Source of the DNA: Nitrococcus mobilis Nb-231
GTDB lineage: Bacteria; Pseudomonadota; Gammaproteobacteria; Nitrococcales; Nitrococcaceae
Direction: 5' to 3'
Assembly (NCBI RefSeq): GCF_000153205.1
Contig: NZ_CH672427.1
Span: 1,838,541-1,902,540 of the forward strand
Length of the DNA stretch: 64,000 nt
This document shows positions 10,398 to 26,208 of this stretch, piece by piece. Below the pieces are notes generated by a model. That model was not told where the DNA came from. It did no database searches and saw nothing but the letters and a program-made list of their open reading frames with translations. How positions within the stretch are numbered: position 1 is the stretch's first letter; each line of letters starts with the position of its first letter. The position numbers and the translations under genes were made by a program.

Positions 10398-11528
10398 ATG
10401 ACGTTAACTTTAGCCGTGCCCAAAGAGTCGGCTCCCGGCGAACGCCGCGTCGCACTTGTCCCGAGCGTGATCGAGCCGCTCGCCAAACTGGGCGTCAAGC
10501 TCCTGATGGAAAAAGGCGCCGGGGAGAATAGCGGTTTCGATGACACCGACTATCAAGGCGTCGAGCTCACCAACGCCGGCACGCTCTATAAGCAGGCGGA
10601 TATTCTGCTCAAGGTCCAGCCGCCGAGCCTCGACGAAGCCGGCAAGCTCAAGAAGGGCAGCATTCTACTCGGCTTTCTTGCGCCACACACAGGGGATAGC
10701 CGGATCAGGAAACTGCTTGAGCGCAAAGTGAGTGCCTTTGCCATAGAATTAGTGCCGCGGATCACCCGCGCCCAGTCCATTGACGCGCTTTCCTCCCAGG
10801 CCAGCATCGCCGGTTATAAAGCCGCCTTGTTAGCGGCGAGCCTGTGTCCACGACTGTTCCCCATGCTCACTACGGCCGCCGGGACCATCCGACCAGCCAA
10901 AGCCCTGATCATCGGTGCCGGCGTGGCCGGGCTGCAGGCCATCGCCACCACCAAGCGCTTGGGCGCCATCACCGAGGCCTATGACGTGCGCGCGGCGACC
11001 AAAGAACAAGTGGAATCACTCGGCGGCAAATTCATCAACACCGGAGTGAAAGCGGAGGGGGAAGGCGGCTATGCGCGGGAGCTCACGGCGGCCGAACGAC
11101 AACAACAGCAAGAAGTGCTGGCCGAGCGCATCGCCCAAGCCGATGCCGTAATCTCGACCGCAGCCATACCGGGCCGGCCGGCACCGAAGATCATCGATAA
11201 GGCGACTGTGCAGCGAATGAAGCGCGGCTCGGTAATCATCGATCTGGCCGCGGAAAGCGGGGGCAACTGCGAGTTGACCCAGGCCGGCAAGCACATCGAT
11301 CACCACGGCGTCGTGATCTATGGACCGGAGAACATCACCAGCACCGCGGCCACCCACGCCAGCGAGATGTATGCGCGCAACCTCTACAACCTACTCGTGC
11401 TGATGATAAAGGACGGCGCGCAGCGGCTCGACTGGGACGATCAGGTCATCGCGGACAGTTGCCTAACCCATGCCGGCGAGATCCGCCACACACCGACTCG
11501 GGAACGTGTGGAAGGAGGCAAAAAATGA
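10398..11528 (+). CDS. pntAA: NAD(P) transhydrogenase alpha subunit, soluble NAD-binding part
   Basis: 376 aa. Domain I of proton-translocating transhydrogenase binds NAD(H). It opens with the alanine-dehydrogenase/PntA N-domain signature (VPKESAPGERRVALVPSV) and includes the Rossmann segment ALIIGAGVAGLQAIATTKRLG with an adjacent AYDVRAATKEQVESLGG. ATG at 10398 is chosen over the in-frame one 30 bases earlier because GGGAG lies at the right distance. It is the first gene of a three-gene operon with four-base ATGA overlaps, the split-subunit arrangement common in Rhodospirillum-type enzymes. The enzyme couples NADPH formation to proton re-entry. Confidence 0.95.
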   Translation: MTLTLAVPKESAPGERRVALVPSVIEPLAKLGVKLLMEKGAGENSGFDDTDYQGVELTNAGTLYKQADILLKVQPPSLDEAGKLKKGSILLGFLAPHTGDSRIRKLLERKVSAFAIELVPRITRAQSIDALSSQASIAGYKAALLAASLCPRLFPMLTTAAGTIRPAKALIIGAGVAGLQAIATTKRLGAITEAYDVRAATKEQVESLGGKFINTGVKAEGEGGYARELTAAERQQQQEVLAERIAQADAVISTAAIPGRPAPKIIDKATVQRMKRGSVIIDLAAESGGNCELTQAGKHIDHHGVVIYGPENITSTAATHASEMYARNLYNLLVLMIKDGAQRLDWDDQVIADSCLTHAGEIRHTPTRERVEGGKK

Positions 11529-11833
11529 TTGAAGGATTGATCGCGCTGTGGATATTCATGCTCGCTGCTTTTACCGGTTATGAAGTGATCAGCCGCGTGC
11601 CCGTCATCCTGCACACCCCATTGATGTCGGGCTCGAATTTCGTCCATGGAATCGTACTTGTGGGCGCCATGGTCGCGCTCGGCGAAGCCAGTGGCGCGAC
11701 CGAGCAGCTGATCGGCTTCATCGCCGTAATTCTGGCGGCGGGCAACGCCGTCGGCGGTTATGTAGTGACCGAGCGCATGCTCGAAATGTTCAAGACCAAG
11801 GACGAACAAAACAAGAAAGGGGGACAAGAATGA
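11525..11833 (+). CDS. pntAB: NAD(P) transhydrogenase alpha subunit, membrane part
   Basis: 102 aa, mostly transmembrane, corresponding to the C-terminal membrane segment of a full-length PntA. Conserved core: FTGYEVISRVPVILHTPLMSG, then ASGATEQLIGFIAVILAAGN. The ATG overlaps the pntAA stop (ATGA at 11525-11528) and its own stop overlaps the pntB start. With PntB it forms the proton channel. Confidence 0.95.
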   Translation: MIEGLIALWIFMLAAFTGYEVISRVPVILHTPLMSGSNFVHGIVLVGAMVALGEASGATEQLIGFIAVILAAGNAVGGYVVTERMLEMFKTKDEQNKKGGQE

Positions 11834-13302
11834 ACACCGTCGTCCAACTCTGCTACTTTGTAGCCGCCGTTTTGTTCATCCTCGGGTTGAAGGGCATGAG
11901 CTCGCCCCGAACCGCCCGCAAAGGCATCGTCTGGGCCGGTATCGGCATGGTGCTTGCGACAGTCGCGACCTTCTTCCACCCGGATTTGCATCACGCCGTC
12001 AACTATCTGCTCATCATTCTCGCCATCGCTGTCAGCGGTGGGCTCGCCTGGTGGTCCGGCAAGCGCGTGCCGATGACCGACATGCCCCAGATGGTGGCAC
12101 TGTATAACGGTATGGGCGGCGGTGCCGCTGCCGCGATCGGAGCCGTAGAGCTGTTCAAGGCCGTGAGTCAGATCGGGGCTACGTCGGCGCAGCAACTCGC
12201 GGCCCAAAAGGATCTGGGCCTGGAGCAAGTCGAACAATTCGCCGCGGGTCACAGCCACGTAGGCAGCCTGCTCGGGGCCGACCACGCTGTGCTCGGTATC
12301 AGCGGCGCGCTCATCGGCGCGGTTGCATTCTCCGGCTCGCTAGTCGCCTGGGCCAAACTCGACGGACGGCTGCACCGCAACCAACTCCTGCCGGCGCAAC
12401 AACTGGTAAACCTCGGTGTATTCGTCGCGACCGTGCTGTTCGCTATTCTCAGCTACTATACCGATGGTTCGGCGGTAATCATTGTCTTCTTCGTCCTTGC
12501 GCTGGTCTTCGGCGTATTCATGGCGATCCCGATCGGCGGGGCGGATATGCCCGTAGTCATCTCATTGTTCAATGCCCTGACGGGGCTGGCCGTCGGCTTC
12601 GAGGGCTATTTGCTCGGCAATCCGGCTATGATCATTGCCGGCACGGTCGTGGGCGCCGCCGGTAGCCTGCTCACCCAGCTGATGGCGAAAGCCATGAACC
12701 GGCCCTTGACCAATGTACTGTTCAGCGGTTTCGGCACCGCCACGGCCGACGCGGGCAGCGATCCGGAGGGCGAGATGAAGGCGATCCAGGCCGAGGACGC
12801 CGCCATCATGATGGGTTACGCCAATCAGGTCGTTATTGCACCCGGCTACGGTATGGCCGTCGCGCAGGCCCAACACAAGGTCTGGGAATTGGTGGAGCTG
12901 CTCCAGGAGCGAGATGTCAGTGTCAAGTTCGCCATTCATCCGGTAGCGGGGCGCATGCCCGGGCATATGAACGTCCTGCTCGCCGAGGCCGGCGTGCCCT
13001 ATGATCTGATCTACGATATGGAAGAGATCAACGCCGAGTTCGACCGCACCGATGTGGTCGTGGTAATTGGCGCCAATGACGTGGTCAACCCGGCCGCCAA
13101 AAACGACCCTTCGAGCCCCATCTACGGCATGCCGATCTTGGACGTGGCTGCCGCGCACAACGTGATCGTCATCAAACGCGGCAAAGGCAAAGGTTTCTCC
13201 GGGGTGGAAAACCATCTGTTCTTTGCGGACAACTGCCGCATGCTCTTCAATGACGGTCAGAAGGCGGCCGGCGAGCTCATTCAGGTGCTAAAGAAGCTTT
13301 AG
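11830..13302 (+). CDS. pntB: NAD(P) transhydrogenase beta subunit
   Basis: 490 aa. About nine membrane spans in the N-terminal 270 residues form domain II with PntAB. The C-terminal domain III binds NADP(H), with the signature VIAPGYGMAVAQAQHKVWEL and the RPAGRMPGHMNVLLAE-type loop (here AGRMPGHMNVLLAEAGVPY). Length fits the family. Its start overlaps the pntAB stop by four bases. The plus-strand neighbour starts 15 bases downstream and may be cotranscribed. Confidence 0.95.
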   Translation: MNTVVQLCYFVAAVLFILGLKGMSSPRTARKGIVWAGIGMVLATVATFFHPDLHHAVNYLLIILAIAVSGGLAWWSGKRVPMTDMPQMVALYNGMGGGAAAAIGAVELFKAVSQIGATSAQQLAAQKDLGLEQVEQFAAGHSHVGSLLGADHAVLGISGALIGAVAFSGSLVAWAKLDGRLHRNQLLPAQQLVNLGVFVATVLFAILSYYTDGSAVIIVFFVLALVFGVFMAIPIGGADMPVVISLFNALTGLAVGFEGYLLGNPAMIIAGTVVGAAGSLLTQLMAKAMNRPLTNVLFSGFGTATADAGSDPEGEMKAIQAEDAAIMMGYANQVVIAPGYGMAVAQAQHKVWELVELLQERDVSVKFAIHPVAGRMPGHMNVLLAEAGVPYDLIYDMEEINAEFDRTDVVVVIGANDVVNPAAKNDPSSPIYGMPILDVAAAHNVIVIKRGKGKGFSGVENHLFFADNCRMLFNDGQKAAGELIQVLKKL

Positions 13303-13316
13303 GTGCGCTGTCCGCC

Positions 13317-13907
13317 ATGTCGGTCGATACCGAGCACAACGATATCGATGGCGAAGCCCGACGCCTCTGGGAGTTCGCGCTCGCGCTCTACGAGGTCGAG
13401 GCGGTGAAGCAGGCCTGTCTCAGTATCCAGGCCCGCTACGGGCTAAGCATCAGTCTTCTGCTGGGCGCCATATGGGCCGGCGCCAACGGTTATGGCCGGC
13501 TCGGTGCCACAGAGCTCGAGACCGCGATTCGGCGCGGCGTGGAATGGCACCGGGAGATCATCGAGCCGCTGCGCGCGCTGCGCCGTCGCCTGCGGCAACT
13601 CCCACCACAGGGTCTTGAGCGCCGCACAGAGCGGCTACGCCACCGGCTACTGGAGCAGGAATTGGAGGCGGAACGGATCGAGCAGCGGTTATTCCTGGAA
13701 GATTTCCCGCCCGGCCGCCCAGCCGCTCCGCTAGCGGAGCGCTGGCGTGACGCCGCCGCCAATGCCGCCCTGCTTACCCGCAAGAGTTGCCCGCAACCGG
13801 AGCCGCAGGCCCTGGAGGCACTGAGCCACATCCTGCAAACGACGTTTCCGGAAGTAGCGGCCGCCGGGCTCGCGCGCGAAGCCGAGGCAGTCTGGCGGAT
13901 CGGCTAG
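13317..13907 (+). CDS. TIGR02444 / DUF2390 family protein
   Basis: 196 aa. The opening WEFALALYEVEAVKQACLSIQ, then GLSISLLLGAIWAG, is the conserved start of the gammaproteobacterial TIGR02444 family. The function of this family is unknown. It is helix-rich, with many Arg and Glu residues and no signal peptide. It follows pntB by 15 bases, so it is likely in the same transcript, and its 3' end overlaps the convergent gene by four bases. Confidence 0.75.
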   Translation: MSVDTEHNDIDGEARRLWEFALALYEVEAVKQACLSIQARYGLSISLLLGAIWAGANGYGRLGATELETAIRRGVEWHREIIEPLRALRRRLRQLPPQGLERRTERLRHRLLEQELEAERIEQRLFLEDFPPGRPAAPLAERWRDAAANAALLTRKSCPQPEPQALEALSHILQTTFPEVAAAGLAREAEAVWRIG

Positions 13908-14884
13908 CGCAATGAACCCTGCCGCAACAGTCGCCACAAGACACTCCAGCCGAATAGCAGCGGATAGCGGCGCTGGTACTCCGTAAGCTTCAGCGCCACT
14001 CCCGTATGCCGCTCGAGCTTCCAGGCGAGATAATCGACCCCATTCTCGAAAGTGAGCGCCGATTTCATCAACCGCAGCACGGTCAACACGCGCCCCTGTC
14101 CCCGCCGGATACGCCAACCCCAGTTCGGCGAGAAATACCCTCGCGCCGACATTCGATTGATATACCAATCGCCTTCATCGACCGCTACCACGCCTGGCAT
14201 CCCGACTACCGCCGCCACTATGCGCCGGCGGTAGTCGGGCAGATCGTGGTATACCAATTCGGCGGCACGCTGCGGAGATTCCGGTCGCAGCTCGGCTGTG
14301 TAACTCAACGCTAAGGCACGCTGCCAACACTCGGCGCTATCAAACCGTTCGGGCAGGCAGGGTAAAGCGCGCTCGAGCAGCGTCACCACGGCGCTCGCCA
14401 AAGCACGCTCGATGCGCCCTCGGGTCGGCTCATCGCGGACATAAACCAAACGCACAGGCTGGGCGAAGCGCCCCCAAAGGTAGGAATGAAACCACTGCGC
14501 CGTGCCAAGCTCCAGATCTTGCAAAGAGAGTACGGCACATTTGGCGCGCAGCGTCGTACCATCGGTGTCGGCCGCTTCATGATAGAAGACATTCGGTGGC
14601 AGCAGGGCATTGAGCCAGCACAATAGGCGGCTCTCATACACCGCCGCGTAGCGGTCGACCACGACGTATAAATCCACCACGCCCGTCCTTGGTTGGCCAC
14701 TGCGCAGGCACGAGCCATAGAAAATCACACCCGCCACGGCCGCACCGAAGCGAGCAATCATGCGCTCGCAGAGCCGGTGTAGAGCAGGCTCTACCGGCCG
14801 GGCGCTCTGCGCCGCCACCGCTGCGATCAAAGCGGCGGGGGGCTCGGAATTGATACGGCCGGGCCGCACGAGCGCGTATCGCAT
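13904..14884 (-). CDS. Nucleotidyltransferase-fold-like protein at the end of the sphingolipid operon
   Basis: 326 aa, no firm family. An N-terminal nucleotidyltransferase-like motif is visible: GVIFYGSCLRSGQ, then VVDLYVVVD. A polymerase-beta-type nucleotidyltransferase would show GS followed by DxD; here the second Asp is Tyr (DLY), so classical two-metal catalysis is doubtful. It is the last gene of a six-gene minus-strand operon with a lipid kinase 23 bases upstream. It may act on the head group of the lipid made by this cluster, or serve a structural role; this is inference. No membrane spans are evident. Confidence 0.5.
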   Translation of the reverse strand: MRYALVRPGRINSEPPAALIAAVAAQSARPVEPALHRLCERMIARFGAAVAGVIFYGSCLRSGQPRTGVVDLYVVVDRYAAVYESRLLCWLNALLPPNVFYHEAADTDGTTLRAKCAVLSLQDLELGTAQWFHSYLWGRFAQPVRLVYVRDEPTRGRIERALASAVVTLLERALPCLPERFDSAECWQRALALSYTAELRPESPQRAAELVYHDLPDYRRRIVAAVVGMPGVVAVDEGDWYINRMSARGYFSPNWGWRIRRGQGRVLTVLRLMKSALTFENGVDYLAWKLERHTGVALKLTEYQRRYPLLFGWSVLWRLLRQGSLR

Positions 14885-14907
14885 CGGCGATCACTCCACC
14901 GGCTGGG

Positions 14908-15912
14908 TCATTGGAATGACAAAAACGTCACTGGCCCACGCTGCGATAGATGCAGCGGGCCCTGTGATCGCTCGGCCCGGTAACGCTCCCCATCCAACAC
15001 GAACCCACCGTCGAACTCGAGCGCCAAGGTGTGGATGTTGTGGCTGAAATAGCCATCCTGCTCGCGTGGTGGTGCTCCAGCGCCGCCTCTGAGCACGGCT
15101 GGAAGGGAACGCCACAAGCGCCCAGGCCGGTGTCGAATCGCGGTGTAGTGCAACGGCGCCGGCTCCACCCCCCAATAGGGTTTCGAGCCCAGCAGGAGAC
15201 GCTCCAAGCCGCTGACGAGGATCAATAAGTAGTCTCCTAGCTGGCTGGCGCTGCCATCCAACCGTAGTCTCAGCCGTACAGGCTGGACCCGGCTCTGGGC
15301 GGGTCGCACCAATGCGAGCAACAACCGGGCCCAGGCAAGCCCGGGGCCAATCGTGCCGCCGGTACGCAAGGCCGCAATTCGGCGATGGAAATACTCCACC
15401 CCGGTGTGGATCGCGCCGGCACCGAAGAACATACCATAAAGTGGCGGCCGCTCGGGTGCCGACACCACCCGCAACACGGGACGTTCGGTGCGCAACGGCC
15501 CGTCGCGGGTACCAGCAAGCCACGCGCCGAGCGCTCGCAATGCTTGCTGGGGCGTCCCTCGGGCACCGACGTCGGCCGCCGTCATGTTAGTCGTACCGCC
15601 TGCAATCACTACGAGCGGCGGCGGTTTCCCCTGCCGCTCACCCGGTCCCAATAGATAGGTCAGTACTGCTTGCAACGTTCCATCGCCGCCGTTTATGGCC
15701 AGCAATTCCGCCCCACTGGCAAGCAGTTCTTGAATACCGAGCGCCGTTTCCGCCGGGCAGACCGCTTCTCGATATGCAGCGCCCGGAAGCCGCCTCGCCT
15801 CTTCCCGAACTTGCCGCAAGCAGCGCCGGTTGCGCCCGCTGTTCGGATTGCAAAGCACACCGACCCGCCGCGGCACCAAGGCATCGGATTCACTCGGTTG
15901 ATTGCGCCTCAT
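14908..15912 (-). CDS. Diacylglycerol/sphingoid-type lipid kinase
   Basis: 334 aa with the DAGK catalytic fold. It starts with RRVGVLCNPNSGRNRR and has the nucleotide-binding AINGGDGTLQAVL. The C-terminal beta-sandwich is typical of YegS/sphingosine-kinase relatives. In Caulobacter crescentus a kinase of this fold (CpgB) phosphorylates ceramide in the ceramide phosphoglycerate pathway. Its position within a complete ceramide gene set makes ceramide or sphingoid base the likely substrate rather than diacylglycerol. That assignment is by context; the sequence alone shows only a lipid kinase. Confidence 0.8.
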   Translation of the reverse strand: MRRNQPSESDALVPRRVGVLCNPNSGRNRRCLRQVREEARRLPGAAYREAVCPAETALGIQELLASGAELLAINGGDGTLQAVLTYLLGPGERQGKPPPLVVIAGGTTNMTAADVGARGTPQQALRALGAWLAGTRDGPLRTERPVLRVVSAPERPPLYGMFFGAGAIHTGVEYFHRRIAALRTGGTIGPGLAWARLLLALVRPAQSRVQPVRLRLRLDGSASQLGDYLLILVSGLERLLLGSKPYWGVEPAPLHYTAIRHRPGRLWRSLPAVLRGGAGAPPREQDGYFSHNIHTLALEFDGGFVLDGERYRAERSQGPLHLSQRGPVTFLSFQ

Positions 15913-15974
15913 TGGATTATGCTAGCGCCCCTTAAGTAATGGATCGGTCCCGGTCACCACCACCACGATATCGA

Positions 15975-17057
15975 TCAACGCCGCGCGGCGCTTTTGCCAA
16001 GCGCCGCCAGCGCCACCGCAAGCAACACGGCCCCCGGCCCCAGCGCGATCAGCGGCGGGCTGAGATCGAGCAACAAGCCCATATTAACGATGATCTGATC
16101 GGCGAGGTACACGCCCAGGCCCGCGATGGCACCCAACGCGATTCGGCTGCCAATACTGGCGCCGCGCGGCGCGCCAATGCTGAAGGGCACCGCAAGTAGA
16201 ATCATCGCCGCGGCGGTCAGGGGCAATCCCAGCTTCTGCCAAAGCATCACAGCGTAGACGGCCGATGATTGGCCGGTACTGCGCAAATACTGCACGTAGC
16301 CATAGAGCTGCACCGGTGAGAGGCTCTCCGCCGGCTTCTCCAGCAACCCGATCTGGGCAGGGGTCAGAAAAGTCTGCCAAACCATGCTGGCGTGCCGAGT
16401 CGTTACCGGCGTGCCGGCCATGAAAGCTTTGACCAGCACTGTATTGAGCCGCCATGGCGCGCGATGATGAATCTCGGCATAATCGGCGTGAATATACCTT
16501 ACGAGATGCCCCTCGGCATTGAAATGAAAAATCTCGATATCTGCTGGAATGCGCCCCAGGCGCAGGGCGCCGACCCGGAGTAGGCGATCACCACGCCGCG
16601 CCCACAACGCGGCGCCGCTTCCCGACTCGGCGTTGCTATCGCCGCTCAGCGCGGTGGCACGCATACCGAAAGCGTGCTGCTGGAGCGGCGAGGCAACCAA
16701 TTGATCGATCGCCGCCAAGAGCAGAATCAACAAAACACCGGCTTTGAGCGCTGCCAATGCGATGCCTCCGGGTGAAACACCGACCGATCGCAGCGCGGTC
16801 AGCTCCCGATGACTCGCCAAGCCTCCCAGCGCAACGGTAGTGCCCAACAGTGCGATAAAGGGGCCAAGCTCGATCAGCCGCCGCGGCAGTATAAGACCGA
16901 CGTAGGCAAACGCCTGGGCACTATGGTAGTTGCCCTGCCCGGTGTCATCCAGCTGTTCTATCAAGTCGATGAAACTGAACAGCGGTAACAGCACAGCCGC
17001 GGCCACCACGAAACCACCCGCCACGGCCCGCATGAGATAACGCTCTGCCGTCTTCAT
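15975..17057 (-). CDS. LptG-like permease in the sphingolipid operon
   Basis: 360 aa YjgP/YjgQ-family permease: two N-terminal membrane spans (RAVAGGFVVAAAVLLPLFSF), a third and fourth around 60-120, a periplasmic beta-jellyroll region (about 130-250) and two C-terminal spans. In LPS export LptF and LptG sit with LptB2 and extract LPS from the inner membrane. ATG at 17057 overlaps the LptF stop (ATGA); an upstream start 21 bases earlier is less likely. Usual lptFG genes lie beside pepA or rdgB-type neighbours, but these lie among ceramide genes, so they may handle a sphingolipid. They could also be the cell's only LptFG pair. Confidence 0.8.
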   Translation of the reverse strand: MKTAERYLMRAVAGGFVVAAAVLLPLFSFIDLIEQLDDTGQGNYHSAQAFAYVGLILPRRLIELGPFIALLGTTVALGGLASHRELTALRSVGVSPGGIALAALKAGVLLILLLAAIDQLVASPLQQHAFGMRATALSGDSNAESGSGAALWARRGDRLLRVGALRLGRIPADIEIFHFNAEGHLVRYIHADYAEIHHRAPWRLNTVLVKAFMAGTPVTTRHASMVWQTFLTPAQIGLLEKPAESLSPVQLYGYVQYLRSTGQSSAVYAVMLWQKLGLPLTAAAMILLAVPFSIGAPRGASIGSRIALGAIAGLGVYLADQIIVNMGLLLDLSPPLIALGPGAVLLAVALAALGKSAARR

Positions 17058-18187
17058 GGCCGCGGCCATCGCCACCATTGCAAATCATGGCTGATCAAGG
17101 CGACAAGCACGACGAACATCACCGCATTGATCCACCAAATACCGGGTACAGCCCCGACCACGCCATGCTCCACCCAGGTTTTTGCCAAGCCGCTGGCGCT
17201 GTAGATCAAAGCATAGACGAGCGCGGCCAACAGAATCTTGGAGAACCGGCCCCGGCGCGGCGCGGTGCGGCTAAGCGGCACCCCGAACAACGCGAGCAGC
17301 ACCGTCGTCAAAGGGCGGGAGAGGCGCCACTGCAGTTCGGCAAGTTCCGCGGGATTACCCGAGCGCGCGAGCGCGGCCGTAGGCGCGGCCTTGCGCTTGT
17401 AGCCCACTACCGGTTGCGGTTGCTGCAGACGTAGCGAGAGTTCGCCGAAACGTAGAATCCGATCATGACTTCCAGCCTGATCAAGCAAGTAGGTAACCCC
17501 ATCGTGCAGTATCAGTCGCGCCTCGTCGGCTTGCTCCGTCGGGAGCTGCCGCGCTTGTCGAGCCTTGGTCAGGTACGTCGCCTCCCCGGCACGCTGATAG
17601 ATCAACACACCGTGCAACAGGCCGCGTTGGTCGTCCACTTCTTGCGCGAGGATCATGCGCCCGGTCTGCGATTCTACATAGAAATGGCCGGCGCGCAGCC
17701 GATCCAGCGGGATCTCCACATGCGCGTGCGCTTCAGCCTGATAGGCTTGCTGGTAGGCCCATGGTCGGCCGAACAACGACAACGCACCGACGGCGAGTGC
17801 AACCGGTAGCGCGAGCAGCAGGATCGCCCAATAAACCCGCGCCGAGCTGATGCCGACCGCGCCGAGGACAGTCATTTCCTGATCGTTGTAGAGACGACCC
17901 AGGCCGATCACTACCGAGGCATAAAGCGCCACCGGAATGAGCACCTCCAGTGCAATCAGGGTCCTGAGCGCAACCATCAACGCAACCGCCTGCATCCCGA
18001 GGGTCTCGCTGAGCGCATCCGCAAGGTAGCGTGCAACCGAGTAGCTCGCAAAAATGAGGCTCAGGACACCAACCACGGCCACCAGCGGGCGGCGCACTTC
18101 CGCGATCAAGTAACGTTCGATCAGCAACACGGGTTTTAAGTACCTTCGACCAACGGTGACGGCACAATCCGGCAGGAACGTACCCAC
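17054..18187 (-). CDS. LptF-like permease in the sphingolipid operon
   Basis: 377 aa from the first ATG. A GTG at 18130 gives a product starting VLLIERYLIAEVRRP, closer to typical LptF N-termini, and a GAAGG lies upstream of it, so the true start may be there. YjgP/YjgQ family: paired N-terminal spans (LVAVVGVLSLIFASYSVARYLA), the conserved YNDQEMTVLGAVGIS cytoplasmic coupling-helix segment, a periplasmic domain at about 140-270 and C-terminal spans. It is translationally coupled to the LptG-like gene. No lptA, lptB or lptC is in the window, so an ATPase partner must come from elsewhere. Confidence 0.8.
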   Translation of the reverse strand: MGTFLPDCAVTVGRRYLKPVLLIERYLIAEVRRPLVAVVGVLSLIFASYSVARYLADALSETLGMQAVALMVALRTLIALEVLIPVALYASVVIGLGRLYNDQEMTVLGAVGISSARVYWAILLLALPVALAVGALSLFGRPWAYQQAYQAEAHAHVEIPLDRLRAGHFYVESQTGRMILAQEVDDQRGLLHGVLIYQRAGEATYLTKARQARQLPTEQADEARLILHDGVTYLLDQAGSHDRILRFGELSLRLQQPQPVVGYKRKAAPTAALARSGNPAELAELQWRLSRPLTTVLLALFGVPLSRTAPRRGRFSKILLAALVYALIYSASGLAKTWVEHGVVGAVPGIWWINAVMFVVLVALISHDLQWWRWPRP

Positions 18188-18253
18188 TGGTACGAACCCC
18201 TTGCCCGCAACGGCCCCGAGTCGATACTCAAGCGAGCGAACCGGCCGCTATCG

Positions 18254-19117
18254 TTACGGGCGATTATCCCCTGCCGCCTCAGTACGCTCGCGCAGCACCG
18301 CCTCGGCAAGCTGCCGGTCAGCCGGTGTATCGACATCCACCGCGGCCTCCGGATAAGGGAGGATAATGGCGCCTATCCGTATTCCCAGTCGACGCGAGAG
18401 CTGCCGCAGAGCTTGCTCCAGAGTGAGCAGCCCCAAAGCGTAGCCCAGCACGGCCCGCCAACCGAGCAATCGTGCGACGACTCGCCAGGGCCGCTTGCGC
18501 TCCTGCTCCACCCTCCGCCAATAATCCGCTAACCGCCGACCACGGGGAGTTAGGAACGCATACAGGTTGCAGCCGCAATACGGCCCGCCTCGCAAGCGAA
18601 TGGCGGTGCGCCGAGCGGCCGGGAACCGAGCCGCTACGATCCGCTGCTCGGCTACCGCAACCGCCAAATCCCAGTTGCCGGCCTGCGCCCGCTGCAGGAA
18701 ATAGCGAATCATCGGGGCACTGAGCAGCGCGTGATCCGCCGTGGTGAGCAATGTGATCCGCTCTGGCGGTAAAGCCGCGAACGCCCCGAGTGCACTCGCA
18801 CTGGGCGAGTCGGCGCAGGCGACCCAGTCGATGCGCGAGGCGGACAGCAGTTCTTGAAGCACCGGCGTGCTTGCAACGATCTCTTGTGCCGGCCCACAGA
18901 GAATAATTCGATCAACCAAAGTGCTATCCCACAGCGCCTGCAGCACCCGCCGCAGCATCGGCGTGCCAGCCACCGGCGCAAGCGCCTTGCAGCACGTGCC
19001 GGCCTCCTTAGCTACAGCATCCGGGGTCTTGCGATCGCCCGCCAATACAATGGCCGCTACGCGGTTCGCCGCCGAATCGACCACGGCGCCAGGCTGACTC
19101 GGGGTGGAGGTATTCAT
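18254..19117 (-). CDS. NTP transferase (MobA/IspD-like) in the sphingolipid operon
   Basis: 287 aa from ATG 19117 (MNTSTPSQ). The Rossmann-like nucleotide-binding start VAAIVLAGDRKT, then CKALAPVAGTPMLRRVLQAL, is the LAGG...K signature of sugar-1-phosphate or alcohol-phosphate nucleotidyltransferases. A further pattern TTADHALLSAPMIRYFL corresponds to the metal-binding Asp region. The family activates a small phosphorylated molecule as an NDP or CDP derivative. Here it could activate a head-group precursor for a phospho-ceramide, which is inference from the neighbours. It lies 26 bases downstream of the ceramide-synthase-like gene. Confidence 0.7.
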   Translation of the reverse strand: MNTSTPSQPGAVVDSAANRVAAIVLAGDRKTPDAVAKEAGTCCKALAPVAGTPMLRRVLQALWDSTLVDRIILCGPAQEIVASTPVLQELLSASRIDWVACADSPSASALGAFAALPPERITLLTTADHALLSAPMIRYFLQRAQAGNWDLAVAVAEQRIVAARFPAARRTAIRLRGGPYCGCNLYAFLTPRGRRLADYWRRVEQERKRPWRVVARLLGWRAVLGYALGLLTLEQALRQLSRRLGIRIGAIILPYPEAAVDVDTPADRQLAEAVLRERTEAAGDNRP

Positions 19118-19143
19118 AATCAGGGAGCGCCGAGCCCGCCGCC

Positions 19144-20322
19144 CTAAAGCGCCTTCTGGTAGAGCCGGTAACGCTTGTAAGGCTCGGCACCGATATTCTC
19201 CAGTATGTTGCGCATGCTCGCGTTGTCCTCGAGAATCCACGACATCTCGACCGCTCGAATGCCCTTTGTCATCACCGGCTCCTGGATAGCGGCAATCAGC
19301 GTGAGCGCCAGCGCCGGCCCGAGCCGGCTGAACTGATACCGTTTAGCCACCCCCATGAGCGGAATCCGGCCGGTCAGCGGATAGCGCACTTTCAAACGCC
19401 AGAGCAGTTTCATCCAGCCGAAAGGCATTAGACGGCCACCTAAATCGCGAATTGCCTCGTTGATATTGGGCAATGCTACGATGAACGCCACCGGCACGTC
19501 GTCGACTTCAGCGATCTGGATGAGATCGTAGGCGACGAATAACCGTAAGTTGCGCCCCAGTTCACGGAACTCTGCCGTGGTAAAAGGTACAAATCCCCAG
19601 TTCTCGGACCAGGCATCGTTGAAAATGTCCCGCAAGGCCGCCATATCCGCAGCGAAGCGCTCCCGGCTGCTGGGGCGCACGCGAATTCGAGCTTGATAAC
19701 GCGCCATCAGCCGGCGCATCGACGGGGTGAAGGACAGCTCGGCAGACGGCATCCAGTAGGCGAGAAGCTCCTTGACCGCGCTATAGCCTTGTTCTTCCAA
19801 GCGATGAGCATAATAGGGCCGGGCATGTCCCATCATGAACACCGGTGGACAATCGAATCCCTCCACCAGGAGGCCGCACTCGTCGTTTATGGACAGATTG
19901 AACGGCCCGCTCACCCGGCGGGCGCCGCGCTGGCGCAGCCAATCCTCTGCAGTCGCCGTCAAGGCCTCGAATGCAGCGGCGTCATCTATGGCCTCGAGCA
20001 TCCCGAAATACCCCGTATGATCCCCATGGCGTTGCTGATGCAGATGATCCAATTGGGCCGTGATCCGCCCTATCGGTCGCAGCCCGCGCCAGGCAACCCA
20101 CCCTTGCCAATCAAGATGCTCGAACAGTGGGTTGTGTCTTGATAGATGCTGGCGACGCTCCAGCTGCAACGGCTCAATCCAATGTGGATCGCTGTGGTAA
20201 AATTGTCGCGGCAAACCCAAAAATGTGGCAAAATCACCACGTCGCTGCAACGATCGAACGACAATCGGCGAATCCCGACGGCCGTGATGCTCGTGATAAT
20301 TCGTTGCGGCGCGTTTTTCCAT
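19144..20322 (-). CDS. Bacterial ceramide synthase (bCerS)-like GNAT acyltransferase
   Basis: 392 aa with GNAT-like folds. Characteristic stretches are SGPFNLSINDECGLLVEGFD, then PYYAHRLEEQGYSAVKELLAYW in the middle and EMSWILEDNASMRNILENIG near the C-terminus. This resembles the YghO-like family that includes the Caulobacter N-acyltransferase needed for ceramide formation (CC_1154/bCerS), which joins acyl-CoA to the sphingoid intermediate. It is the first gene of the minus-strand operon, divergent from the operon encoding acyl-AMP ligase, ceramide reductase, ACP and serine palmitoyltransferase. Confidence in the family is good; the ceramide role is supported by context. Confidence 0.75.
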   Translation of the reverse strand: MEKRAATNYHEHHGRRDSPIVVRSLQRRGDFATFLGLPRQFYHSDPHWIEPLQLERRQHLSRHNPLFEHLDWQGWVAWRGLRPIGRITAQLDHLHQQRHGDHTGYFGMLEAIDDAAAFEALTATAEDWLRQRGARRVSGPFNLSINDECGLLVEGFDCPPVFMMGHARPYYAHRLEEQGYSAVKELLAYWMPSAELSFTPSMRRLMARYQARIRVRPSSRERFAADMAALRDIFNDAWSENWGFVPFTTAEFRELGRNLRLFVAYDLIQIAEVDDVPVAFIVALPNINEAIRDLGGRLMPFGWMKLLWRLKVRYPLTGRIPLMGVAKRYQFSRLGPALALTLIAAIQEPVMTKGIRAVEMSWILEDNASMRNILENIGAEPYKRYRLYQKAL

Positions 20323-20456
20323 ATGCGGTAATCTCTCCGGCGCTCCCGCCCGAATGACGTAAAGACAAACCGGGCTGAGGCAAAGTGCGGTTAAGATTAT
20401 TTCGAACTACCACCGAGCGTGGAGGTCAATATTTTGGCGGGTGCAACGCCTCATCC

Positions 20457-20492
20457 TCTGTTATGTGCATCTTGTCTGTTATGAAAATCTTG
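20457..20492. repeat. Two tandem 18-bp units in the sphingolipid control region
   Basis: TCTGTTATGTGCATCTTG is followed directly by TCTGTTATGAAAATCTTG. The units differ only in three central bases. Head-to-tail units with conserved outer parts look like a repeated binding site. Confidence 0.65.
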
Positions 20493-20525
20493 CTTGTTTT
20501 TATAGGACTGTTGTTTCATATTCAT

Positions 20526-20561
20526 GTAGACTCTGAACTTAACGTAGATTCTGAAGTTCAG
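20526..20561. repeat. Second pair of 18-bp units in the sphingolipid control region
   Basis: GTAGACTCTGAACTTAAC is followed directly by GTAGATTCTGAAGTTCAG (14 of 18 identical). It has the same period as the pair at 20457-20492 but a different sequence. GAACTT and AAGTTC within it also form an inverted repeat. Confidence 0.55.
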
Positions 20562-21059
20562 TAGGCTGATCTCCACTGCACTTTAAAAGAAAAGGCGCCA
20601 TGGAAGATCCTCATTCGACTCTGGGCAAGCAACGGCTAAGCGCGGCGCAGCGTAAGGGCGGGACGCAGCCTGCCTTTGCATGGGAAGTTGGACACTGGCA
20701 GATGGCGCGGTTACTGGAAAAGTCATGGCTTGTCCGCGTATCTCGTCACGATTCGACCCTGCATGCCAATACTAATATAACCAACAGTACGGGTATTGAA
20801 ACGCGTAAACAACGACAGCGGCAGAGGCTTCGCCGGGCACTGGGTGCACTCTCTGCCGCACGCAACGCCCAGCTGGCAAGATTATCCTGCGCAGCGGGCA
20901 TTTACCAGCGGACCCCATAGCGGTCGCATTATAGGCTCACACGGGCTCCCTCTGGCGAGCCCTGCATGGAGGCGGGCGGACGCGCCGGTTTACGGCTAAC
21001 CGCCACTGCGACCGCAATGGTCGGAGAGCTAGGGACAAAGAAAGCGGAAGGTACCTGAA

Positions 21060-22835
21060 TTGATTAGAACGGCCACGCCAACAATCAATAATCGCCCTCT
21101 GCGCTGCGCGGATTTCCCAACGCTCGCGCAAGCGTTGGATTATGCTGCGCAGGGCGTCACTGGGTATAATTTCTACGACGGTCGTGGGCGGTTGCGAGCG
21201 GCGCTTCCATACGCCGAGCTTCGGCAACGCGCGCAGGCCACGGCCAAACGTCTCCACGGGCTCGGTTTGAAACGGGGTGAGCGGGTCGCATTGATTGCCG
21301 AGACCTGTCCGGAGTTCATGGAATTCTTCTATGCCTGCCAATACGGGGGCTTCGTCCCGGTACCCTTGCCTATCACGATCAATCTCGGCAGCCGGGGGAG
21401 CTATATCGAGCGCCTGCGCCGCCTGCTCCATAGTTGCAGCGCCACGGCCGCCATGGCGCCTGCGGAATTCCTGTCGTTTCTGCAGGAAGCCGCCGACGGC
21501 CTCAAGCTGCGCTTCGTAGGCAGCCCAGCGGATTTCTATGCGCTCGAAGAACCGGCGGTGGAACTTGAATCCAGCGGGCCGGACGAGATCGCCTATTTAC
21601 AATACACCTCTGGAAGCACCCGCTTCCCGCGCGGGGTGGTCATTACCCAACAAGCGGTCATGGCCAACTTGGCCGGCATCGTGGGCACCGGGCTTGCAGT
21701 TCGCCCCGGCGATCGCTGTGTCTCATGGCTGCCTTTTTACCACGATATGGGCTTGGTCGGGTTTGTCCTCGGGCCATTGGCCTCGCAGCTCTCCGTCGAT
21801 TATCTGGGTACCCGCGACTTTGCCATGCGCCCACGGCAATGGCTGGCATTGATCAGCAACAACCGAGGCACGATCGCCTTTGCACCCCCGTTTGGCTACG
21901 ACATCTGCGCTCGACGTATCCATCGCGCCGAGCTCGACCGCTATGATCTTAGCTGTTGGCGCGTAGCCGGCGTCGGCGCGGAGACGATTCACGCCGAGAC
22001 ATTAGAGCGCTTTGCCGATTTTCTGGCGCCGGCCGGTTTCAACCGCCACGCCTTCCTACCCTGCTACGGACTGGCGGAGAGTTCGCTGGCCGTCACCTTC
22101 GCGGCGCTCGATCAAGGCATGGTCGTGGATCAGGTCGACCGCCGAGCTTTGGAAGACCGCATGTCCGCTCGCGCGTTCGCGGCAACGGATGGCCGCGGCG
22201 AGCGCGTCAGGGCATTCGTCAACTGCGGCCGACCGTTGCCTGGCCACGAGGTGATTGTTCGCGACGCCGACTACAAGGCGCTGCCCCACCGTCAGGTCGG
22301 TATTGTCAGTGTCAGAGGGCCGAGCCTGATGTCCGGTTATTTCCAGGACGCGGCCAGTACCCATGATGCCCTCGGGCCGGACGGCTGGCTCGACACCGGC
22401 GATCTGGGCTACCTGACCGAAGCCGGGTTGTTCATCACGGGACGCTGCAAGGATCTGATCATCGTCAACGGTCGCAATATCTGGCCCCAGGATATGGAGC
22501 GCCTCGCCGAAGAGCAGCCGGAAGTCCGGCTCGGCGATGTCACCGCTTTCGTCGCATCTCACCCCAAGGGCGGCGAGATCGTGGTCATGCTGGTTCAGTG
22601 CCGACTGACTGAAAACGAGCGTCGTGCTGACCTGGTAAACCGGCTGCAGCGGATGATCTACAGCGAATTCGGTATAAAATGCCGCATCGAGCTGGTTCCG
22701 CCCAAAACCCTACCGAGGACTTCCTCCGGCAAGCTCTCGCGCTCGGAGGCGAGACGGCGTTTCATACAACGAGTCGGCTGGAATCAACGCAGCGAGATTA
22801 TCGTGGAGGCGCCCAAAGCCGCGGTCTCCAGCTGA
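21060..22835 (+). CDS. Fatty-acyl-AMP ligase / acyl-ACP synthetase
   Basis: 591 aa adenylate-forming enzyme. The nucleotide loop YLQYTSGSTRFPRGVV is present, as are YGLAESSLAVTF and GWLDTGDLGY, and the C-terminal part includes GRCKDLIIVNGRNIWPQDME and the catalytic-type Lys near LPRTSSGKLSR. The fatty-acyl-AMP-ligase subfamily (FAAL/FadD32-like) loads the acyl adenylate onto an ACP rather than CoA. A dedicated ACP gene lies two genes downstream and Caulobacter has an acyl-ACP synthetase (CC_1165) in its ceramide cluster. It likely supplies acyl-ACP to serine palmitoyltransferase. First gene of the operon; the ceramide reductase starts 8 bases after its stop. Confidence 0.85.
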   Translation: MIRTATPTINNRPLRCADFPTLAQALDYAAQGVTGYNFYDGRGRLRAALPYAELRQRAQATAKRLHGLGLKRGERVALIAETCPEFMEFFYACQYGGFVPVPLPITINLGSRGSYIERLRRLLHSCSATAAMAPAEFLSFLQEAADGLKLRFVGSPADFYALEEPAVELESSGPDEIAYLQYTSGSTRFPRGVVITQQAVMANLAGIVGTGLAVRPGDRCVSWLPFYHDMGLVGFVLGPLASQLSVDYLGTRDFAMRPRQWLALISNNRGTIAFAPPFGYDICARRIHRAELDRYDLSCWRVAGVGAETIHAETLERFADFLAPAGFNRHAFLPCYGLAESSLAVTFAALDQGMVVDQVDRRALEDRMSARAFAATDGRGERVRAFVNCGRPLPGHEVIVRDADYKALPHRQVGIVSVRGPSLMSGYFQDAASTHDALGPDGWLDTGDLGYLTEAGLFITGRCKDLIIVNGRNIWPQDMERLAEEQPEVRLGDVTAFVASHPKGGEIVVMLVQCRLTENERRADLVNRLQRMIYSEFGIKCRIELVPPKTLPRTSSGKLSRSEARRRFIQRVGWNQRSEIIVEAPKAAVSS

Positions 22836-22843
22836 AGATTTCG

Positions 22844-23764
22844 ATGGCGGGTGTAGTGGCACTAACCGGCGCGACGGGTTTTATCGGCGGCGCCTTGTGC
22901 CAACCACTCGCCCAAGCCGGATGGCGCATTCGTGCTCTAGTGCGACGGGCCCCCGACATTGCGTTGGCGAGTAGAATCGAATGGGTCCGTGGCGATCTCG
23001 ATGATGTCGCTGCATTGCGCCGCCTGGTGGCCAATGCCGATGCTGTCATCCATTGCGCAGGTGCAGTTCGCGGGCGCTCCCTCGAGGACTTCGATCGGGT
23101 CAATGTCCACGGCTCCGAACGCCTACTGCATACGGCCCGCGCCGAATTACGCTGCACGCGCTTCCTTTTCATGTCGTCGTTGGCCGCTCGTGAACCGACT
23201 TTATCCTGGTACGCTGCCTCCAAACACCACGCCGAAGAGGTCTTGCGGCAGCAGAGCGGTGCGCTTGCGCTTACCATCTTCCGCCCCACTGCAGTCTACG
23301 GACCCGGTGATCGAGAACTCAGTCCCCTTTTTCGATTCCTGCGCCGCGGCTTACTGCCCGTTCCAGGCAACCAGCACGCACGGTTGACCCTGCTGCATGT
23401 GCACGACCTGGTCACAGCGATACTACGCTGGCTCGACTCCTCACCCCCTGCAGCGGGAACGTTCGAGCTCCATGATGGGCGAGCCGACGGCTATAGCTGG
23501 CAAACCATCGCTGCGATCGCCGCCCGGGTCCAGGGCCGCCCGGTGCGATTGCTGAATCTGCCGCGCACCGGCCTGACCTTGGCAGCCGCCGTCAATCTCC
23601 GCCTCGCACGCTGGCTCAGATATCAGCCGATGCTTACACCAGGGAAATTAAGGGAACTTCGGCATCCCGATTGGATATGCGACAATAGCGCGCTCGCCGC
23701 GGCGCTCGGCTGGCGACCCAGAATCGATTTCGAGCGCGCCATGCGGGAGGGGTTGAGCGGATAA
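22844..23764 (+). CDS. cerR: NAD-dependent epimerase/dehydratase family, ceramide reductase (CerR)-like
   Basis: 306 aa extended short-chain dehydrogenase. The start MAGVVALTGATGFIGGALC carries the TGxxGxxG cofactor motif. A catalytic Ser/Tyr/Lys set is seen in FLFMSSLAAREP and WYAASKHHAEEVL (YxxxK), followed by FRPTAVYGPGDRE. In the Caulobacter ceramide pathway a protein of this family, CerR, reduces the 3-keto group of the N-acylated intermediate to give dihydroceramide. ATG 22844 is preferred over upstream in-frame starts because it falls 8 bases after the acyl ligase stop. The catalytic class is visible in the sequence; the ceramide substrate is inferred from the cluster. Confidence 0.75.
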   Translation: MAGVVALTGATGFIGGALCQPLAQAGWRIRALVRRAPDIALASRIEWVRGDLDDVAALRRLVANADAVIHCAGAVRGRSLEDFDRVNVHGSERLLHTARAELRCTRFLFMSSLAAREPTLSWYAASKHHAEEVLRQQSGALALTIFRPTAVYGPGDRELSPLFRFLRRGLLPVPGNQHARLTLLHVHDLVTAILRWLDSSPPAAGTFELHDGRADGYSWQTIAAIAARVQGRPVRLLNLPRTGLTLAAAVNLRLARWLRYQPMLTPGKLRELRHPDWICDNSALAAALGWRPRIDFERAMREGLSG

Positions 23765-23817
23765 GCCGCTACACCACCCGAAGCGTAGACACGCAGTCCA
23801 CACGGGGCTGGCAAGCC

Positions 23818-24069
23818 ATGATGGCAGACTATCAACAAATTCTAGATCGACTCTACACTCACCTGCGCCCTATGGCGCCGCAAGGCACGAGGTTGGGCGA
23901 GGACACGGACTTGATCAGTGAGTTCGGCCTGGATTCCGTCAATGTCATGGACCTGTTGCTGGAAGTCGAAGAGGATTTCGATATATCCGTGCCGTTGAAC
24001 CTCCTCGCCGATATTCGCACGCCCAAGGATCTCGCACGCGCAATCGTTCGGTTGCTGGAGGCGGGATAA
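23818..24069 (+). CDS. Dedicated acyl carrier protein
   Basis: 83 aa, acidic. The phosphopantetheine attachment motif FGLDSVNVMDLL has Ser40. Its stop overlaps the spt start (ATAATGG). The gene pair ACP-Spt is a mark of bacterial sphingolipid clusters, where this carrier delivers the acyl chain to serine palmitoyltransferase (AcpR, CC_1163 in Caulobacter). It is not the fatty-acid-synthesis ACP, as no fab genes are nearby. Confidence 0.9.
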   Translation: MMADYQQILDRLYTHLRPMAPQGTRLGEDTDLISEFGLDSVNVMDLLLEVEEDFDISVPLNLLADIRTPKDLARAIVRLLEAG

Positions 24070-25283
24070 TGGCATTGTTTGACAAGTTCAATAAGCTCGC
24101 CAACGACCGCGCGGAACTCTTTCCCACCGGCCTCAGCCCTTTCGAGACCCGGATCGAGGAAGTATATTCGCCTACCGAGGCACGCATCGGCGGGCGGCGG
24201 GTGCTGCTCGCTGGCACCAACAATTATCTCGGCCTGACCTTCGCGCCCGAATGCATCGAGGCGGCCCATAAAGCCGTGGAGCGAGAAGGGACGGGGACCA
24301 CGGGCTCGCGGATGGCCAACGGCAGCTACGGCGGCCACTACGCTTTGGAAGCGGAACTCGGAGACTTTTATCGATGCAATTCGGTGATTGTTTTCTCTAC
24401 CGGCTATCTCGCCAGCTTGGGCCTGATTGGCACTTTGGCCGGAGCGCAAGACATAATACTGCTCGATGCGGATTGCCATGCCAGCATCTACGATGCCTGC
24501 CGACTCAGCGGCGCTCAAATCATACGGTTTCGACACAATGACGTTGCCGATCTCGAACGGCGGCTGCAGCGACTAAGAGAGCGTACCGAGAACACACTCA
24601 TCGTGGTGGAGGGGCTCTATAGTATGCTCGGCGACCGGGCACCGTTAGCCGAGATTGCCGCGGTCAAACGTCGCCACGGTGGTTATTTGGTGGTGGATGA
24701 AGCCCATTCTCTCGGAGTGCTCGGCGAGCACGGCCGCGGGCTATCCGAGGAAGCCGGGGTAGCCGCCGAGGTCGACTTCGTACTTGGCACATTCAGCAAA
24801 AGCCTGGGGGCCGTAGGCGGATTTCTCGCCAGTAATCACCCCGAGTCCGAGTTCTTACGCTACGCCAGCCGTCCGTACATCTTCACGGCATCGCCCTCGC
24901 CCTCCGTTGTTGCATCCACGCGCGCCGCGCTACAGCTGCTGCGTAATCGTCCGCAGTTGCGTGAGCGGCTGTGGGCCAATGCCACTCAGCTCTATCACCA
25001 ACTGCGGGCACTCGGCTACCAGCTCGGCCCCGAGCCGAGCCCAGTCGTGGCCACCCTGCTCGGATCCCGACAGCAGGCGGTGGCATTCTGGCAGGGGCTG
25101 CTCGAGCGTAACATCTACGTCAATCTGGTGTTACCGCCGGCTGCACCCGGTGGTTATACCCTGGTTCGTTGTAGTGTCAGCGCGGCCCATACCCCCGCAC
25201 AGATCGACACCATCTGCGAGGCTTTTGCCGATCTGCGAGCGATGCTTAAGCGCTCGGACACGCCGGACTCCCATCGCGGCTGA
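24069..25283 (+). CDS. spt: Serine palmitoyltransferase
   Basis: 404 aa, alpha-oxoamine synthase family (PLP fold type I). The PLP Lys is K244 in FVLGTFSKSLGAVGG; VVDEAHSLGVLG supplies the cofactor Asp and substrate His, and the entry segment NNYLGLTFAPE is conserved. AONS relatives such as BioF and Kbl look similar. The decisive features are the overlap with a dedicated ACP, the adjacent fatty-acyl-AMP ligase and CerR-like reductase, and the divergent ceramide-synthase-like gene. Reaction: L-serine plus acyl thioester gives 3-ketosphinganine, CO2 and free carrier. Cytoplasmic or membrane-peripheral. Confidence 0.88.
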   Translation: MALFDKFNKLANDRAELFPTGLSPFETRIEEVYSPTEARIGGRRVLLAGTNNYLGLTFAPECIEAAHKAVEREGTGTTGSRMANGSYGGHYALEAELGDFYRCNSVIVFSTGYLASLGLIGTLAGAQDIILLDADCHASIYDACRLSGAQIIRFRHNDVADLERRLQRLRERTENTLIVVEGLYSMLGDRAPLAEIAAVKRRHGGYLVVDEAHSLGVLGEHGRGLSEEAGVAAEVDFVLGTFSKSLGAVGGFLASNHPESEFLRYASRPYIFTASPSPSVVASTRAALQLLRNRPQLRERLWANATQLYHQLRALGYQLGPEPSPVVATLLGSRQQAVAFWQGLLERNIYVNLVLPPAAPGGYTLVRCSVSAAHTPAQIDTICEAFADLRAMLKRSDTPDSHRG

Positions 25284-25309
25284 ACGCTGCCGATCCAGGC
25301 AACTCGAGC

Positions 25310-25341
25310 CGGCGGCTACGTGACCATAAGCATAGCCGCCG
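25310..25341. terminator. Hairpin between convergent spt and DUF2147 genes
   Basis: CGGCGGCTA (25310-25318) pairs with TAGCCGCCG (25333-25341) around a 14-base loop. It lies 27 bp after the spt stop and 3 bp after the end of the convergent gene. There is no clean T tract, so terminator function is probable but not certain. Confidence 0.5.
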
Positions 25342-25343
25342 AC

Positions 25344-25838
25344 TTAACCCGCGGGGCTGCGTGTACGCGAATGACGGGGGCATTCGTGCGCCGGAGGAAC
25401 CGTGCGGTGCCAAATCTGAGTTTTGCCAAACAACGGTAGGAGTACGTAGGCACGGACCCGTAACTGATCCGGTTCGGCAAGTGTCAGGTAACTATGGTAG
25501 GTCTTACCCTTGCGAGGATCATAGATCAAACCGTCGACCCAGCTTCGCGCGGCCGTTTGTTGGAAGCCCTCGAGCACTTGCAGCCCGCACAGGGGTTGCT
25601 CACGCTTGCCAGGATTTGGATTATGCCGATCACGCTTGAGCGCTCCGTTGCCGTGATAAGGCTTGGCGAGCCAAACGATGCGGCCGCAGAGCTCGGAGCC
25701 GCAGTCTGCGATGCGTACCGCCACGGTCGACTTGTCGTTGATCCATACGCCGAGCGCTCCTTGCTGGCCGGCCGGCCCAGCCTGGAGCGGCAGGCTAACG
25801 AGCAGCCAAAGCGACGCCACAACCCTCACAATGCGCAC
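25344..25838 (-). CDS. DUF2147 secreted protein
   Basis: 164 aa if GTG 25838 is used. That start is preceded by GAGGTGA seven bases away and opens directly into a signal peptide (IVRVVASLWLLVSLPLQAGPAG); longer frames upstream lack this. The mature part shows the DUF2147 pattern: GVWINDKSTVAVRI, LCGRIVWL and IYDPRKGKTYHSYLTL. The family is periplasmic, lipocalin-like and of unknown role. A second DUF2147 gene lies at 62798. The C-terminal tail is rich in Arg, Pro and His. Confidence 0.7.
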   Translation of the reverse strand: MRIVRVVASLWLLVSLPLQAGPAGQQGALGVWINDKSTVAVRIADCGSELCGRIVWLAKPYHGNGALKRDRHNPNPGKREQPLCGLQVLEGFQQTAARSWVDGLIYDPRKGKTYHSYLTLAEPDQLRVRAYVLLPLFGKTQIWHRTVPPAHECPRHSRTRSPAG

Positions 25839-26208
25839 CGTGCAGTCACCTCGGAGCAAGGCCACGCAGCGTTTGGGCCAGGTCACGCCGAGCTCGCCCA
25901 TACAAAGCAGCGCAACAGCGCGGCAGTCAATCGGCACAGGCGGCACCTCCACAAGAATGAGTCGCTACCCCCCAGGGATCCGATCCTCGGGCTGGCAATA
26001 TCCGCGTATTATTATTGCTGGCAGGCTGGCAACTCAACCACTCCGCCTCACTCCCACTCCGCCTGTACCCTCACCCCGACCTCAAAACAGCCAGCACCGC
26101 CAGATCGAAAACGCAGTGCGGCGAAATCACCCCGGCGCAGGCGGCGGCTAGCGGCACTATGGCAAAGGCCCTATTGCTCGCTTCATCACCCCAAACGGTG
26201 ACAGCAGC
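25839..26208. other. 370-bp noncoding gap before priA
   Basis: No recognisable gene. It contains CA-rich and CTCC-rich sequence with short imperfect repeats of CACTCCGCCT near 26040. It should carry the promoters of priA and of the divergent DUF2147 gene. Confidence 0.4.

Follow-up and report, generated by a model that had tools for sequence, protein, structure and literature searches.

Introduction

Genetics in Caulobacter crescentus identified five genes for ceramide, and CC_1160 and CC_1161 were required for ceramide phosphoglycerate (CPG) (PMC11324152). In the same work contiguous clusters with at least 13 good orthologues were described in Azotobacter vinelandii and Pseudomonas luteola, for which CPG and CPG2 were predicted, and transport of the sphingolipid to the outer membrane by LptF2 and LptG2 was proposed. 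Five clustered ceramide genes were reported from Escherichia coli BL21 (PMC9386255). The island type is thus already published for gammaproteobacteria, and what is new here is the host. A stretch of 64,000 nucleotides from Nitrococcus mobilis Nb-231 (contig NZ_CH672427.1, positions 1,838,541 to 1,902,540; the window) was analysed, in which positions 13904-25283 hold a sphingolipid island of ten intact open reading frames in two divergent operons (Table 1). The genome comprises 3.62 Mb in 9 contigs. Nitrococcus is a marine bacterium that oxidises nitrite. The island probably makes and exports a phosphosphingolipid, with a single glycerate (CPG) as the most probable head group and the CPG2 step missing. 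Sphingolipids are thereby predicted in a marine nitrite oxidiser, which, if true, matters for their use as environmental markers.

A sequence-only reading of the window had placed ten genes in two divergent operons here, including all five ceramide classes, and had proposed an anionic sphingolipid with a head group as in ceramide phosphoglycerate. All ten frames were open at these positions. Nine were named by Pfam (Tam41_Mmp37, DAGK_cat, LptF_LptG twice, NTP_transf_3, AMP-binding, Epimerase, PP-binding and Aminotran_1_2), and the tenth, CerS, was modelled as a tandem GNAT protein. The five ceramide classes were borne out by profiles, the CerS model and motifs, and an anionic (phosphorylated) product is well supported at the gene level. 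The likeness to ceramide phosphoglycerate held for the first-step genes (CerK-like and CpgC-like) and failed for the CPG2 genes CpgA and CpgD, which had no close match. The identity of two further genes as LptF and LptG was absent from that reading.

Predicted pathway

Enzyme classes and gene content were observed, and from them we infer the individual reactions, the head group and export. AasR would load a fatty acid on AcpR, Spt would join acyl-AcpR and serine, and CerR would reduce the ketone. Dihydroceramide would result when CerS attaches a second acyl chain. Ceramide 1-phosphate, the product of the CerK-like kinase, would most likely be activated by the Tam41-like CpgC, which would use CTP to form CDP-ceramide or a comparable intermediate. 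CpgC and NTP3 would provide a head group that is anionic and most probably consists of one glycerate (CPG), and LptF2/LptG2 would carry the lipid toward the outer membrane, presumably borrowing other Lpt parts.

Comparison with described clusters

The Caulobacter CPG/CPG2 region (CC_1168-CC_1152) has in common with the Nitrococcus island, by domain or description, AasR, CerR, AcpR, Spt, CerS, CerK, a CpgC-like and a CC_1153-like nucleotidyltransferase (NTase), LptF2 and LptG2. CpgA (in Caulobacter CC_1159) and CpgD (CC_1152) had no close match in the Nitrococcus genome. The island also lacks CC_1158, LptC2 and the flippase gene, for which the rest of the genome was not searched. The A. vinelandii and P. 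luteola clusters show the same genes and divergent layout, with A. vinelandii proteins 44-71% identical, but include CpgA, flanked by LptG2 and CerK, and CpgD, flanked by LptF2 and NTP3; the Nitrococcus island has neither. Islands of Pseudomonas mandelii, P. bohemica, Pseudomonas sp. LS-2 and Pseudomonas sp. SLFW (L059, L049, L048 and L075) hold the ten genes in the order found here, with no CpgA or CpgD match; they are 36-66% identical to Nitrococcus and form a separate branch of the Spt tree.

The E. coli BL21-type cluster (aas-sdr-acp-spt and yghO) shares the ceramide core and LptF/LptG with the island in the E. coli record compared (NZ_MG591698.1, L239), where the annotation, taken without a sequence search, names no lipid kinase, Tam41-like protein or nucleoside triphosphate (NTP) transferase. 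This stretch (9576-22546), next to the glc operon, holds yghO, a fatty acyl-AMP ligase, a short-chain dehydrogenase/reductase (SDR), an acyl carrier protein (ACP), an Spt-like gene, lptG and lptF, with two annotated thymidylate (dTMP) kinases (yghS, yghT). It is recorded as a plasmid, although we take its gene content to be chromosomal.

Head-group genes

The putative ceramide kinase and CpgC genes of the CPG pathway are both present. Residues Y56-G57-S58 and D71 of the CpgC-like protein were invariant in 27 aligned rows. Its sequence matched Tam41 (6ig2) weakly (E 1.1e-4), and for its structure model (pLDDT 83.9) the five best PDB folds were all Tam41, with TM-scores of 0.47-0.60. Tam41 is a CDP-diacylglycerol synthase. 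The same idea of CDP activation has been published for Caulobacter CC_1161 (PMC11324152).

NTP3 shares 56% identity with the protein at L022:4663-5496 in the A. vinelandii island and lacks, in alignment, the GxGxR (Arg16) loop of CpgD. The CpgD residues ruled NTP3 out as CpgD. Because it matches the remaining A. vinelandii NTase and has no Arg16 loop, NTP3 was taken as CC_1153-like by elimination, with no direct comparison. A PDB search with NTP3 returned one chain at E <=0.1, TTHA0179 (2dpw), whose function is unknown.

Current models place CC_1153 in the step from CPG to CPG2, and in CC_1153 mutants CPG still accumulates and CPG2 is absent (PMC11324152). Ceramide is much increased in the CC_1153 and CC_1159/CC_1160 mutants, moderately increased in the CC_1161 mutant and under wild type in the CC_1152 mutant (PMC11324152). 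These ceramide levels fit the two-module split that is also seen in gene content.

Gene modules in 49 genomes

Relatives were taken as the best 80 of 252 confirmed Spt relatives. The four head-group genes were scored in 49 genomes, namely the present genome and a further 48 to which 49 of the 80 loci belong; they were picked mainly for long flanks, not at random, and many are draft metagenome assemblies, in which absences are weak. Thresholds for a strong match were set after the results had been seen, at gaps in the scores, so that the weakest counted and strongest uncounted matches were 3.8e-64 and 6.4e-22 for CpgC, 3.9e-61 and none for NTP3, 1.3e-74 and 4.2e-28 for CpgA, and 1.1e-75 and 1.9e-33 for CpgD.

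Strong CpgC was found in 43 of the 49 genomes and strong NTP3 in the same 43; the other six had no NTP3, and CpgC was absent or weak. Strong CpgA (31/49) and CpgD (32/49) occurred only inside the 43, of which 30 had both, one CpgA only, two CpgD only and ten neither. Of these ten, three are Nitrococcus-like, four belong to Pseudomonas, two to Desulfobacterales and one to Calditrichota. With CpgA and CpgD taken jointly, at least 4 changes were needed on the Spt tree (39 rows), with CpgA alone 6 (42 rows) and with CpgD alone 5; all three change counts omit G023, which has two islands, and the 39-row count also omits the three genomes with one of the two genes. The second module has therefore been gained or lost repeatedly. 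When CpgC and NTP3 were compared by independent pairs on the starred branches of the Spt tree, there were four pairs, all agreeing (p 0.125), so that the co-occurrence is suggestive and not significant after relatedness.

The CpgC-NTP3 profile and the ceramide build-up in CC_1153 mutants fit a role of CC_1153 near CpgC better. The co-occurrence suggests that NTP3 belongs to the first head-group step, whereas current models assign it to the second. By gene content the CPG/CPG2 pathway divides into two modules, and the role of CC_1153 becomes directly testable. The island could be a minimal phosphosphingolipid unit with its own LptF2/LptG2 export, in which NTP3 is not confined to the CpgA/CpgD step and either partners CpgC at the first head-group step or defines a different head group; we hold this proposal tentatively, at somewhat below an even chance.

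The proposed pathway has several points against it. Orthology with the CC_ genes rests on domains, on published CpgD residues and on the A. vinelandii comparison, and the CPG build-up with CPG2 loss in CC_1153 mutants fits the published model of that gene. Two genomes (G016 and G022) carry CpgC, NTP3, CpgA and CpgD but no CerK match at E 1e-10, and the order of CerK and then CpgC may therefore not be obligatory.

The main rival, a ceramide with another phospho head group fixed by the specificity of NTP3 or CpgC, draws on the recurrence of CpgC and NTP3 without CpgA and CpgD in the ten genomes above and on the enzymatic roles of CC_1153 and CpgC, which the accessible text of PMC11324152 and PMC12275187 leaves undefined. 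It is rather unlikely, given that Caulobacter needs CC_1160 and CC_1161 for the glycerate-bearing lipid.

CerK was found at E 1e-10 in 43 of the 49 genomes, a different 43 from the CpgC set, and was present in G024 and G027, where CpgC was absent or only weak. CpgA adjoins CpgC at G016:C2 637870-640020 and G022:C1 528416-530543, islands for which no CerK match at E 1e-10 accounts for ceramide phosphorylation. In G024, a Pseudomonas metagenome assembly, an island has CerK (L044:318-1824), while the genome matches neither CpgC nor NTP3. Next to this CerK are two genes with Thymidylate_kin matches, one just above the cut-off and one below; the pair recalls E. coli yghS/yghT and is possibly another head-group module.

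CpgA, CpgD and the CPG2 step

CpgA of A. vinelandii is a 394-residue CDP-alcohol transferase (L022:344-1525). The second NTase of its island (L022:3887-4666) has the CpgD residues Gly12, Arg16, Asn90, Ser170 and Trp201 at matching offsets, and deviates in Ser for Thr93, Ala at Thr88 (a backbone contact) and Asn110-Gly111 shifted by one position, the residues compared being those of PMC13228409. With the A. vinelandii protein as query, CpgA had no match at E 1e-6 in the whole Nitrococcus genome. PF01066 was found at three places, among them the single tblastn match to CpgA, 30% identical over 81 residues. CpgD had no close match genome-wide; the best was 33% identical (C1:1566267), and a second, weaker one was an adjacent phosphoenolpyruvate (PEP) mutase fusion. 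Eight of the 15 PF12804 places in this genome were read, and the CpgD protein search covered the whole genome.

Since CpgA and CpgD were not found in the genome, CPG2 formation in Nitrococcus was rejected, and by this gene content CPG2 is an unlikely product. Full CPG2 synthesis as in Caulobacter, in which unrelated or distant enzymes encoded elsewhere in the genome would stand in for CpgA and CpgD, is correspondingly very improbable. The NTase at C1:1566267, 33% identical to CpgD of A. vinelandii, and a CDP-alcohol transferase of small size at C1:1563831 could be proposed for it, but both lie within about 6 kb that also carries genes for PEP mutase and phosphonopyruvate decarboxylase. In alignment, Asn90 and Asn110-Gly111 of published CpgD are missing from the NTase, and the CpgA search gave nothing at its threshold.

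The region at C1 1563.7-1569.8 kb (approximate limits; L007, L010 and L011) is a phosphonate gene set. It encodes a PEP mutase-NTP transferase fusion, a phosphonopyruvate decarboxylase, a second NTP transferase and a CDP-alcohol transferase, together with a flippase-like (HpnL/LPG_synthase_TM) protein and a protein with a weak 2-oxoglutarate oxygenase match. Its product may be a phosphonolipid. Matches to the NTase and to a 578-residue frame that resembles the PEP mutase fusion occur in two other Nitrococcus-like genomes (G005 and G006).

Ceramide genes

All five rhodobacterial ceramide genes (aasR, cerR, acpR, spt and cerS) are present and intact, and completeness of the ceramide gene set is well supported by their sequences. 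CerS had no Pfam or NCBIfam match. Its structure model, from a 36-row alignment, had a mean pLDDT of 89.6, and the PDB structures closest to it were tandem GNAT enzymes, the top one at E 5.1e-15, with TM-scores of 0.57-0.73 for the first eleven, by query or target length. The GTFSKS motif is intact in Spt, as are GGDGT in the kinase and the DS attachment motif in the ACP.

The best PDB match of Spt was the serine palmitoyltransferase 2x8u (E 1.1e-127). Phylogeny of Spt versus BioF/Kbl, which the sequence-only reading had named as a check, put the window protein on the Spt side, in agreement with the profile cut-offs: in a quick tree 79 Spt rows, the window Spt among them, were split (SH-aLRT 86) from 8 BioF/Kbl-like rows, of which 2 come from the same genome and several sit on long branches. 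A BioF/Kbl-like aminotransferase in an operon for a product other than ceramide is hardly credible: the enzymes are of one superfamily and the bioF profile of NCBIfam matches with 335.7 bits, but this is under its cut-off of 426.45, the Spt profile scores over 500, the best PDB relatives are Spt and the tree separates the two groups.

Export genes

Four LptF/LptG matches in two pairs were found in the genome, one in the island and the other at C1:3165142-3167258. Island LptG2 and LptF2 are 30% and 34% identical to their counterparts in that pair. The genome also has lpxC, and because of lpxC and the ordinary pair beside the island pair, the sphingolipid would accompany lipopolysaccharide. Export is probably built into the island through LptF2/LptG2.

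Host and gene order

The closest Spt among the best 80 relatives, 93% identical, is from a Nitrococcus mobilis metagenome assembly. Spt was found at E 1e-100 in 6 of 54 genomes of the order, this one included, all of the Nitrococcus family (4 of the 5 of the genus and 2 others), a patchy presence that fits gain by transfer or repeated loss. A plasmid search with Spt gave 703 matching records, and as the four best were only 61-64% identical there is no evidence of a recent plasmid source. In the literature covered, which leaves out most subscription journals, nothing was found on Nitrococcus with ceramide, and Nitrococcus with sphingolipid gave a soil study. The accessible text of a paper on Black Sea sphingolipids (PMC11334938) has no mention of Gammaproteobacteria, phosphoglycerate, nitrite or gene cluster.

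The 80 relatives come from gamma- and betaproteobacteria, deltaproteobacterial groups, Nitrospirota, Methylomirabilota and others. Gene order was read at all 80 loci, many of the fetched stretches ending at contig ends or at the 10 kb flank. AasR, CerR, AcpR and Spt were in line on one strand in 60/80, with CerS divergent upstream in 43 of these 60, and relatives of all ten genes lay within the fetched stretch in 9/80. Conservation of this order excludes a chance arrangement. To the right, the island is followed by PriA and two more proteins of the window in two Nitrococcus-like loci (L016 and L017) as well; the left flank is not comparable there, both loci beginning at CpgC.

Island layout

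Table 1. Features of the Nitrococcus sphingolipid island, in window coordinates
Feature	Position	Strand	Evidence
CpgC (CC_1161)-like, Tam41-type nucleotidyltransferase	13904..14884	-	PF09139 E 1.4e-8, above cut-off
CpgB/CerK-like lipid (ceramide) kinase	14908..15912	-	PF00781 E 4.8e-12; GGDGT at residue 75
LptG2, second LptG-type permease	15975..17078	-	TIGR04408 297.4 bits, cut-off 240
LptF2, second LptF-type permease	17054..18187	-	TIGR04407 304.6 bits, cut-off 230
NTP3, MobA-like nucleotidyltransferase, CC_1153-like by elimination	18254..19117	-	PF12804 E 4.8e-13
CerS, predicted GNAT-type bacterial ceramide synthase	19144..20322	-	alignment and structure model
Divergent intergenic region, presumed promoters	20323..21059		737 bases
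AasR, acyl-AcpR synthetase (fatty acyl-AMP ligase)	21060..22835	+	NF006624 835 bits, cut-off 600; PF00501
CerR, 3-oxosphinganine reductase-like SDR	22844..23764	+	PF01370 E 5.5e-29; GATGF and YAASK motifs
AcpR, dedicated acyl carrier protein	23818..24069	+	PF00550; DS at residues 39-40
Spt, serine palmitoyltransferase	24069..25283	+	NF047599 622.6 bits, cut-off 500

Judged on translation, the tabulated starts of CerR and NTP3 are more likely than the starts of their open reading frames at 22679 and 19240. A promoter and terminator scan of the divergent region gave no sigma-70 consensus site and terminator-like matches only at chance level, and an Rfam scan of window positions 12000-28000 gave no match. 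The region contains a plus-strand open reading frame of 106 codons (20600-20920), whose status is unclear, and the GC fraction of the kilobase 20001-21000 is 0.543, below that of the neighbouring kilobases.

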